Below the pieces are notes generated by a model. It saw only the letters and a list, made by a program, of their open reading frames with translations, searched no databases and was not told the DNA's origin. A DNA stretch of 64,000 nucleotides from Methylibium sp. GTDB taxonomy: Bacteria; Pseudomonadota; Gammaproteobacteria; Burkholderiales; Burkholderiaceae_C. Where the stretch lies: positions 1 through 64,000 of the forward strand of contig PNNH01000076.1 of the NCBI GenBank assembly GCA_013824165.1, in the 5' to 3' direction. Position numbers and translations under genes: made by a program. Of this stretch, positions 1-1,299 are shown piece after piece (position 1 is the first letter of the stretch; each line of letters opens with the position of its first letter).

Positions 1-359
1 GGGGTGATGTAGGTCCGGTCGAAGAACGGTATGTGGTAGTTCGTCAGAGCCCACTCGTGATCCTTCACCGTGCTCGCGCCTTTGACATTGGCCGGAAGTA
101 GCTTCATCCGTTCGATGGCCAGCTTGGCAACGTCCCGAAACGCCTTTGTCTGGATCGCGATACCGTGCTCGTGCTTGATCTCGCATTCCGCCCGCACCTT
201 GATCGCAGCTGTCACAGCCTTCGCGCGATCACGCTGCTTGGTGGTACGAGAGATCCACTTGCCGCCGACCTTGAATCGCGCCAGCCAAACTGCACTGTTT
301 GCCTGCAGATAGATGTACAGGCTATCGTCTACAGTCTGTTTGTCGATGAGCTGATTCAT
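1..359 (-). CDS. Tyrosine-family integrase, N-terminal part (cut by window edge)
   Basis: The minus strand is open from an ATG at 359 to the left edge, giving 119 residues that begin MNQLIDKQTVDDSLYIYLQ. The composition and layout (a short beta-rich start, WLARFKVGGKWISRTTK, then a helical region with TVKDHEWALTNY) fit the N-terminal arm-binding and SAM-like core-binding domains of phage or ICE tyrosine integrases. The catalytic domain lies outside the window, so activity cannot be judged. It reads away from a tRNA-Ser fragment 110 bases to the right, the usual position of an integrase beside its attachment site. Family assignment is from sequence feel plus context. Confidence 0.72.
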   Translation of the reverse strand, partial: MNQLIDKQTVDDSLYIYLQANSAVWLARFKVGGKWISRTTKQRDRAKAVTAAIKVRAECEIKHEHGIAIQTKAFRDVAKLAIERMKLLPANVKGASTVKDHEWALTNYHIPFFDRTYIT

Positions 360-392
360 GGTGATTGCAGTGCGCGGCGCAGTTGCTACAGT

Positions 393-453
393 TTTGCAAA
401 GAATTTGCAAAGTTGCGACCAGCGCATGCAAACCATTGAATCACAATGTGATT
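393..453. promoter_or_regulatory. Putative integrase arm-type repeats and dyad beside att site
   Basis: TTTGCAAAG occurs twice as a direct repeat at 393-401 and 404-412, 11 bases apart, about one helical turn. A near-perfect dyad, AATCACA-A-TGTGATT, lies at 439-453. All sit between the integrase start codon and the tRNA-Ser fragment. Spacing and location suggest arm-type integrase or excisionase sites, or an operator for the integrase promoter. This is inference. Confidence 0.4.
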
Positions 454-468
454 TTTTGAAGCACTGCC

Positions 469-526
469 CTTGAAAACCGGCGAGGGTTTGCGCCCTCCGT
501 GAGTTCGAATCTCACCGCTTCCGCCA
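469..526 (+). other. Attachment-site junction: 3' half of tRNA-Ser(UGA)
   Basis: From 469 the sequence matches a tRNA-Ser(UGA) from the anticodon loop (CTTGAAAACCGG) onward. It includes a long variable arm (GAGGG...CCCTC), a T arm with GTGAG-TTCGAAT-CTCAC, and a 3' end CGCTTCCGCCA. The 5' half is missing: bases before 469 do not pair with the anticodon stem and no GGAAGCG acceptor strand is present. This is what an integrative element leaves at the end distal to the restored tRNA. The element therefore lies to the left and ordinary chromosome to the right. Confidence 0.75.
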
Positions 527-530
527 TTTC

Positions 531-549
531 TGCCCGCCGAGAACGGGCA
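531..549. terminator. Small hairpin after tRNA fragment and livF
   Basis: TGCCCG at 531-536 pairs with CGGGCA at 544-549. It lies just past the tRNA 3' end and 34 bases beyond the livF stop codon. There is no clear T run on either strand, so it is a weak terminator candidate. Confidence 0.3.
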
Positions 550-582
550 CCGAGCAGGCGACCCACCCTTGGCTGGCCCCGC

Positions 583-1299
583 TCACACCTCCAGCCACTC
601 CTTGCGGATATAGCTGTTGGCCCGCAGGTCGTCGGGCGAGCCTTCGAAGACGATGCGGCCGTGGCCCATCACGTAGCAGCGCTCGGAGATCTCCATCGCG
701 ATCGCCAGCTTCTGTTCGACCAGCAGCACCGCGATGCCGCGGCGCTTCAGTTCTTTCAGGTATTCGGCCACCTGCTCGACGATCTTGGGCGCCAGGCCTT
801 CGGTGGGCTCGTCGATCATGATCAGATCGGGGTCGCCCATCAGCGTGCGGCACAGCGTCAGCATCTGCTGCTCGCCGCCCGACAACACGCCAGCCTCGGT
901 GTGCTGGCGCTCCTTCAGACGCGGGAACAGCTGGTACATGTCGTCGAAGCCCCAGCGCGCGTTCTTGGCGCCGCTCTTCTGGCCCAGCAGCAGGTTCTGG
1001 TGCACAGTCAGCTTGGGGAAGATGTCGCGGTTCTCCGGCACATAGCCGATGCCTTCGTGGGCAATCTCGTAGGCCTTGCGGCCCAGCATCTCGCGCTCGC
1101 CGAACTTGATCGAGCCGCTGCCGTCGACGTTGCCCATGATGGTCTTGACCGTCGTCGAGCGGCCCGAGCCGTTGCGGCCCAAGAGGCTGACGATTTCGCC
1201 CGGCCGCACTTCCATGCTGACACCGTGCAGCACATGGCTCTTGCCGTAGAAGGCGTGGACGTTGTCCAGCTTCAGAAGTCGTCCCTTGCCCGCGCTCAT
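583..1299 (-). CDS. livF: Branched-chain-type ABC transporter ATPase LivF
   Basis: The 238-residue cytoplasmic ATPase is of the LivF type, the second nucleotide-binding subunit of a hydrophobic amino acid (HAAT) family importer. The ABC signature (LSGGEQQ), Walker B (LIMIDEP) and the LivF-type GLAPKIVEQVAE stretch are all present. The Walker A loop reads GRNGSGRST, so the usual lysine is arginine (codon 1159-1161). The start ATG overlaps the livG stop by four bases, which implies translational coupling. It is the last gene of the minus-strand liv operon. Substrate cannot be read from the ATPase. Confidence 0.9.
   Translation of the reverse strand: MSAGKGRLLKLDNVHAFYGKSHVLHGVSMEVRPGEIVSLLGRNGSGRSTTVKTIMGNVDGSGSIKFGEREMLGRKAYEIAHEGIGYVPENRDIFPKLTVHQNLLLGQKSGAKNARWGFDDMYQLFPRLKERQHTEAGVLSGGEQQMLTLCRTLMGDPDLIMIDEPTEGLAPKIVEQVAEYLKELKRRGIAVLLVEQKLAIAMEISERCYVMGHGRIVFEGSPDDLRANSYIRKEWLEV

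Follow-up and report, generated by a model that had tools for sequence, protein, structure and literature searches.

A mobile element of about 9.7 kb has very probably split the host tRNA-Ser(UGA) gene at its anticodon loop while bringing along an intact replacement for it, as part of a module of integrase, attP and tRNA that recurs in related elements. Both junctions, the empty site, the shared core, the replacement tRNA and the recurrence in relatives are directly observed. The window, that is, the whole stretch of 64,000 nt analysed here, comprises the beginning of contig C4 (G000:C4:1-64000) in a draft genome of 123 contigs, 4.7 Mb and 99.3% completeness. As base 1 of the window is also the end of the contig, the left side of the element had to be sought on another contig.

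ARAGORN detects zero complete tRNAs in the window. At 469..526 of the plus strand stands a 58-bp 3' half of the native tRNA-Ser(UGA), running from the anticodon loop to the CCA, just as the sequence-only reading had described it. The loop CTTGAAA (469..475, plus strand, 7 bp), with the anticodon TGA at 471-473, is the longest stretch common to attL and attR and forms the shared core, within which the crossover lies. The remainder of the half gene (476..526, plus strand) continues with the 3' strand of the anticodon stem, a long variable arm, the T arm, the 3' strand of the acceptor stem and the CCA ending at 526. A distance of 110 bp separates the half-tRNA from the start of a tyrosine integrase gene, whose N-terminal 119 codons occupy 1..359 of the minus strand, read away from the half-tRNA and run off at base 1, where the contig edge interrupts them; the truncated integrase had likewise been recognised from the letters. 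As listed, this open reading frame begins at TTG 431; the ATG at 359 is the probable start, chosen by homology with the closest homologue, the integrase of HGW-Betaproteobacteria-16 (G455). Two further features lie between the integrase start and the crossover: a repeat pair, TTGCAAAG-N3-TTGCAAAG (394..412, plus strand), and TTTGAAGCA (455..463, plus strand), which in the rebuilt attP forms the left arm of a perfect 9-bp inverted repeat around the core. Native chromosome collinear with the same-genus genome G001 follows from 527 onward (527..1299, minus strand); its first gene (583-1299, minus strand), a LivF-type ABC ATPase named by eye, likewise adjoins the intact tRNA in G001.

With window positions 380-700 as the query, a single other match was obtained in the same genome, on contig C24. 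The minus strand of C24 reads, in order, an ApaH-type phosphatase gene (named by eye), the native tRNA 5' half, about 130 bp, and a complete tRNA-Ser(TGA) at C24:9148-9059 (minus strand). The 5' half finishes in GGTCTTGAAA, still split at CTTGAAA, with non-tRNA sequence next, and the roughly 130 bp behind it contain a second pair of TTGCAAAG repeats, TTGCAAAG-AC-TTGCAAAG (C24:9220-9203, attL side), and no tRNA 3' half. From the native 5' half to the element tRNA the spacing is 167 bp, the commonest one among related elements. The view that the window begins at the far junction of an element integrating in an anticodon loop, with the integrase adjacent, is thereby borne out, its other end being on C24. 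The accompanying expectation that this other end would restore the full tRNA failed, C24 holding the native 5' half split at the loop. The complete tRNA-Ser(UGA) and the core that had been predicted to the left are indeed both present on C24, but the tRNA is encoded by a distinct gene, complete with a 5' half of its own, and 14 of its 90 positions deviate from the native sequence.

C24 begins inside the integrase gene, and its protein continues that of the window (C24:1-870, plus strand). The two contigs overlap by 9 bp only, the last 2 bases of C4 differing, and because the break sits inside the integrase gene their join rests on homologues rather than reads. In G455, one integrase open reading frame of 404 aa passes through the break point (IPFFDRLHITSIDQERLAKFDAWRI), and identity to it is 65.5% for the window part (all 119 residues) and 63.2% for the C24 part. 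Another contig with an integrase gene cut at its start, C114, was tried as the continuation and rejected: unlike C24:1, its first bases do not, by eye, continue the integrase reading frame of C4. Integrase continuity between C24 and C4 therefore defines the element as C24:9276 to 1 plus window 1-468, or an estimated 9.7 kb or so from core to core; extra element DNA could be absent from the draft assembly.

G001 provides the comparison with an element-free genome that had been proposed from the sequence, as it carries an intact tRNA-Ser(UGA) at an empty site. It matches the C24 flank at 93.7% identity over 2,181 bp and the window flank at 95.7% over 3,021 bp, collinear from window 476, in keeping with the earlier claim of native chromosome rightward. 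The C24 5' half and window 469-526 join into 90 nt that are identical to the tRNA-Ser(UGA) of G001 at 90/90 positions, and the half-tRNA is thus not a chance likeness.

The element-borne tRNA-Ser(UGA) departs from the native gene in a structured manner. Eight of its 14 differences form four pairs changed on both sides with pairing kept (the D stem accounts for two, the anticodon stem and the variable arm for one each), so that the fold is preserved; the others comprise one one-sided change that keeps its pair and five in loops. Its D stem (GGA:TCC) and variable arm match G031 and G030, two other genera of the bacterial family, and are unlike both the host's native gene and that of G001, an agreement that points to a foreign origin. 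The serine tRNAs found in the host genome are CGA, GCU and, solely in the element, UGA. Neither the class II tRNAs in a set of 42 Rfam tRNA matches nor a two-mismatch pattern search of the draft assembly revealed another tRNA-Ser(UGA). The split gene appears to have been the host's sole tRNA-Ser(UGA), and a further one could be missing from the draft. Reading of UCA requires an anticodon starting with U, and UCA codons are in use, at 4 of 1,970 codons in five window genes. tRNA-Ser(GGA) did not turn up in the class II set read from these Rfam matches, through either an assembly gap or a true absence. Elsewhere in it (G000:C83:15248-15882), a tRNA-Ser(CGA) has an integrase domain match about 130 bp past its 3' end, resembling an ordinary tRNA island.

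In the rebuilt attP, the core lies between perfect 9-bp inverted repeats, TTTGAAGCA / TGCTTCAAA, 5 bp off on each side, the TGCTTCAAA arm being that of the attL side. Out of 2000 positions drawn at random within the element, 2 give a match as good as this 9/9. In the nine other elements tested the repeat is weaker, as 77-111 of 2000 random positions do equally well in three of them and at least 508 of 2000 in the other six; it was accordingly rejected as a general attP feature. Repeat pairs like those of TTGCAAAG were found near both ends in 9 of 15 element sequences, at one end in 3 and at neither in 3, and are putative arm sites of the integrase.

The proposed mechanism is that the tyrosine integrase would recombine attP with the 7 bp of the anticodon loop, whereby the host tRNA gene dies. 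Since attP lacks the rest of the tRNA and would bring just the loop, insertion would leave two dead halves, of which C24 now has the 5' one and window 469-526 the 3' one. The intact foreign tRNA-Ser(UGA) would make the insertion survivable. In the circular form this gene would adjoin attP; after insertion it would be found some 130 bp inward of attL, downstream of the native 5' half and in the same orientation. The element presumably excises as a circle, and excision would restore the host tRNA gene. Its tRNA is predicted to be transcribed, charged and needed. No sigma-70-type consensus was found before either the element tRNA or the native 5' half; a reasonable guess is therefore that the two are transcribed together from the native promoter, which may help to drive the element tRNA.

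Related integrases are found mainly in Gammaproteobacteria (among them Shewanella, Alteromonas, Colwellia and Rheinheimera), as shown by a scan of genome contigs that yielded 72 named loci; the clade also includes two betaproteobacteria. A tree was built from 60 integrases, namely that of the present element and those of 59 of the 72 loci, 13 with short or interrupted matches being omitted. A tRNA 3' half stands beside the integrase start in 41 of the 60 (27 Leu, 12 Phe, 2 Ser) and none was recognised in 19, two of which (L107 and L145) have the contig end there; simple pattern matches for 3' halves, at 45 of 72 loci, include false ones. Targets cluster on the tree: counting 'none' as one of four labels, the label changes 12 times, compared with 27.3 times on average after shuffling, and 0 of 200 shuffles reached so low a value. 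Eleven of the 12 Phe integrases fall into one supported group, L152 standing outside. The targets of these relatives are tRNA-Leu(CAA) and tRNA-Phe(GAA) and, in one betaproteobacterium, G455, tRNA-Ser(CGA), where the gene is split and the acceptor stem of the replacement differs from that of the split gene. Ten genomes (G445, G446, G447, G453, G460, G463, G465, G467, G469 and G479) have a second, paralogous integrase directly behind the first. In the Burkholderiales, distant relatives of the integrase occur in 11 of 399 genomes besides the present one (E <= 1e-20, 31-44% identity), and 5 of 14 loci of these same-order relatives have a complete tRNA-Phe, Met or Lys. Plasmids gave five records, the best an Alteromonas plasmid with 42.6% identity over 73% of the query, and phages gave three matches among 50,697 records, at <=28% identity to the 289-aa C-terminal part of the integrase; viral contigs gave no pattern match.

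The far ends of the Leu and Phe elements were sought by means of a Leu/Phe anticodon-arm pattern in the whole sequences of 41 named genomes, no split half having been found inside the integrase loci of +/-10 kb, as most far ends sit further out. The search listed 132 arm sites; 113 arms were read, including a few of the variant GGTATAC, which is outside the pattern. Of these 113, 77 belong to complete tRNAs and 36 are orphan 5' halves, distributed over 32 of the 41 genomes. Nine of the 41 showed no split half by this pattern. A complete tRNA of the same isoacceptor is next to 35 of the 36 orphan halves, within 600 bp and on the same strand, and in 25 of those 35 cases it is at 145-179 bp, start to start; the 36th half (G467) stands at a contig edge. 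As the pattern covers Leu(CAA) and Phe(GAA) only, the serine sites rest on two elements. Fifteen element sequences were read in all, the present one included, and both halves were found in ten. In each of these ten, the joined flanks give a complete tRNA (10/10), while attL, attR and attP give none singly, and neither the attL nor the attR of the present element forms a tRNA alone. Their cores measure 7-9 bp and their lengths 9.7-27.7 kb. In other genomes where integrase and split half share a contig, as much as 45 kb (G471) and perhaps 55 kb (G454) lies between them.

Five of the 15 element sequences are missing one part or another. In G458 and G478, the stretch read includes a split 5' half and a complete tRNA and lacks a 3' half. 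In G442, the integrase adjoins a 3' half, and the far end is a single complete tRNA-Phe with its own upstream region and no split half, which might be either true regeneration or collapse between repeated 5' halves. G465 combines the integrase with a single complete tRNA-Leu, with no split half and no 3' half on the integrase side. In G461, the integrase is present with neither a split half nor a 3' half beside it; instead, some 100 bp past a complete tRNA-Leu(CAA) and not near the integrase, there is a tRNA-Leu 3' half (L249, G461:C43:173000-181500), perhaps left by a lost or rearranged element.

Repeated halves occur at several sites. Two tRNA-Leu(CAA) 5' halves precede the complete tRNA at G446:C12:345293-345629, at L280 (G464:C28) and at L281 (G470:C1). 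In G464 and G470 the two halves differ in sequence, as though one island had inserted into the tRNA brought by its predecessor, and in G446 they are identical; tandem or nested insertions into element-borne tRNAs are a possible origin of all three. Two Shewanella genomes (L101 and L105) have two tRNA-Leu 3' ends in a row upstream of the integrase, which suggests repeated insertion. Extra tRNAs also stand beside the replacement, a Leu(CAG) before the Leu(CAA) in G454 (L273, G454:C12:108300-109500) and a Leu(CAA) after the Phe(GAA) in G450 (L235, G450:C49:264500-277000). In G014, which belongs to the same bacterial family as the host, a tRNA-Ser(UGA) 5' half (..GGTCTTG) lies about 100 bp before a complete tRNA-Ser(UGA) (L079 4650-4874; G014:C1 ~793649-793873). 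The L079 site has no TTGCAAAG repeats, and its downstream open reading frames include one that by eye resembles a Zot-type ATPase of filamentous phages; it is possibly a different element with a 5' tRNA fragment, in the same tRNA gene.

Other explanations of the split gene have to be measured against these arrangements. An ordinary tDNA island, the attP of which supplies the missing half so that the tRNA is regenerated at the far end, would follow the usual rule for tDNA islands (Islander, PMC4383910), and G442 looks like such a case, as its integrase end has a 3' half and the opposite end a complete tRNA-Phe. The present element, however, ends on the far side in a split 5' half that no 3' half follows, attL alone yields no tRNA in this element or the other nine tested, and the complete tRNA-Ser(UGA) has a 5' half of its own, which leaves regeneration highly improbable here. 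That the complete gene is instead a second host copy, in tandem and unrelated to the element, the split being harmless degeneration, is hardly credible either. Genes for the same isoacceptor can stand close together, as in Phe/Thr clusters, but the G001 site has one tRNA, without a second tRNA gene and without the spacer of about 130 bp; the element tRNA differs from the native genes of the host and of G001 and shares its D-stem and variable-arm type with G031 and G030; and the succession of a 5' half and a complete tRNA recurs in other bacteria, both at Leu and Phe genes and at one for Ser(CGA).

A third possibility is a nested or successive pair of insertions, the complete tRNA having arrived with the first element and the native gene having been split by the second; its models are G464, G470 and G446, with their two successive 5' halves before a complete tRNA. 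For the present genome such a history is very unlikely: it has one 5' half, one 3' half and one complete tRNA-Ser(UGA) at this element and a single integrase match of the family at E <= 1e-20, and its spacing of 167 bp between 5' half and tRNA is the one most often met in the family. A single element that splits the tRNA gene and replaces it remains the preferred reading.

The cargo of this element is an ABC-three-component (Lamassu-like) operon with a predicted anti-phage role. It encodes an LmuB-like SMC/Rad50-like ATPase (PADLOC LmuB, E=5e-47; Pfam AAA_23, E=1e-8) together with an ABC-3C Middle Component 5 protein (Pfam, E=1e-43) and a C-terminal domain 9 protein (E=2e-31), the latter two having no match in PADLOC. 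Ten proteins of the element were compared with PHROGs, giving integration and excision families, two DNA-metabolism matches (the SMC ATPase) and families of unknown function; no virion family was found among the ten, so that by this comparison the element does not qualify as a temperate phage. Two backbone proteins recur by tblastn among the 15 element sequences, one of 147 aa in 12 of them and a second, short recombinase in 10; homologues of the 147-aa protein in G455 and G458 match Pfam DUF6641. G455 carries a type II methylase with a restriction enzyme and a DzbA-like protein, and G458 a HamB-type helicase and an IetA-like ATPase, the neighbour of the helicase being without a PADLOC match. 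The cargo of the three elements scanned, out of 15, thus differs and looks like anti-phage defence as judged from protein similarity.

A wider reading, put forward with some reservation, is that a proteobacterial and apparently non-phage clade may have fixed tRNA-replacing integration, the tRNA serving as an addiction device that keeps the defence cargo and as the next landing site. As the host gene is dead while the site is occupied, losing the part of the island with the tRNA would be lethal and clean excision would not. If so, the replacement tRNA becomes the target for the next island, giving rise to nested arrays of half-tRNAs. The observations suggest that a mobile element can swap the host's sole tRNA for a codon with a foreign copy, and searches that expect a regenerated tRNA would misread such sites.

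Among known systems, the nearest is tRNA-dependent lysogeny in actinophages, temperate phages of Actinobacteria, with the requirement for the phage tRNA demonstrated by mutants in mycobacteriophages (Guerrero-Bustamante & Hatfull, mBio 2024, PMC10865867). The actinophage targets it names are tRNA-Lys, tRNA-Ile2 and tRNA-Leu(CAA), and it calls for further work on how frequent such lysogeny is outside actinophages (PMC10865867). As described there, actinophages and the present element alike use a tyrosine integrase and an attB in a tRNA gene, commonly in the anticodon loop; the phages likewise have a core of 8-17 bp that does not rebuild the tRNA, encode a tRNA of the same isotype and have putative arm-site pairs flanking the attP core (PMC10865867). 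The element possesses both structural hallmarks, a core too short to rebuild the tRNA gene in which it lies and a complete tRNA of the same isotype, and seems to work like tRNA-dependent lysogeny in an element that need not be a phage. Unlike the actinophages of that account, the elements described here have beta- and gammaproteobacterial hosts and target Ser(UGA), Ser(CGA), Leu(CAA) and Phe(GAA); the present one is also set apart by an integrase whose C-terminal part has <=28% identity to its phage matches, by defence-like cargo and by the lack of any virion family among the ten protein sequences scanned. Sinorhizobium meliloti prophages resembling Mesorhizobium phage vB_MloP_Lo5R7ANS inactivate tRNA-Leu(UAG), which an element-borne tRNA-Leu(UAG) replaces (PMC11476347; also mentioned in PMC12429752). 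These are alphaproteobacterial prophages reported for two strains and are not presented as the rule of an integrase clade (PMC11476347). The Lactobacillus johnsonii prophage Lj965 also leaves its tRNA unrebuilt and encodes the cognate one, according to the same source as for the actinophages (PMC10865867), but differs from the present element in being a lactobacillus prophage. Classic tDNA islands, as outlined for Islander (PMC4383910), share the tyrosine integrase, a crossover often in the anticodon loop and a tDNA fragment at one end; their attP regenerates the target tRNA, whereas neither junction of the present element rebuilds a complete one. No published account of a defence-carrying, tRNA-replacing family in proteobacteria was found among open-licence full texts, which is weak evidence of absence. 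With tRNA replacement seen in 32 of the 41 genomes tested for Leu/Phe sites, a partial answer emerges on its spread beyond actinophages, and these loci merit attention because a habit known from single phage cases here seems to be general to one integrase clade. The principle itself is already known from phages.
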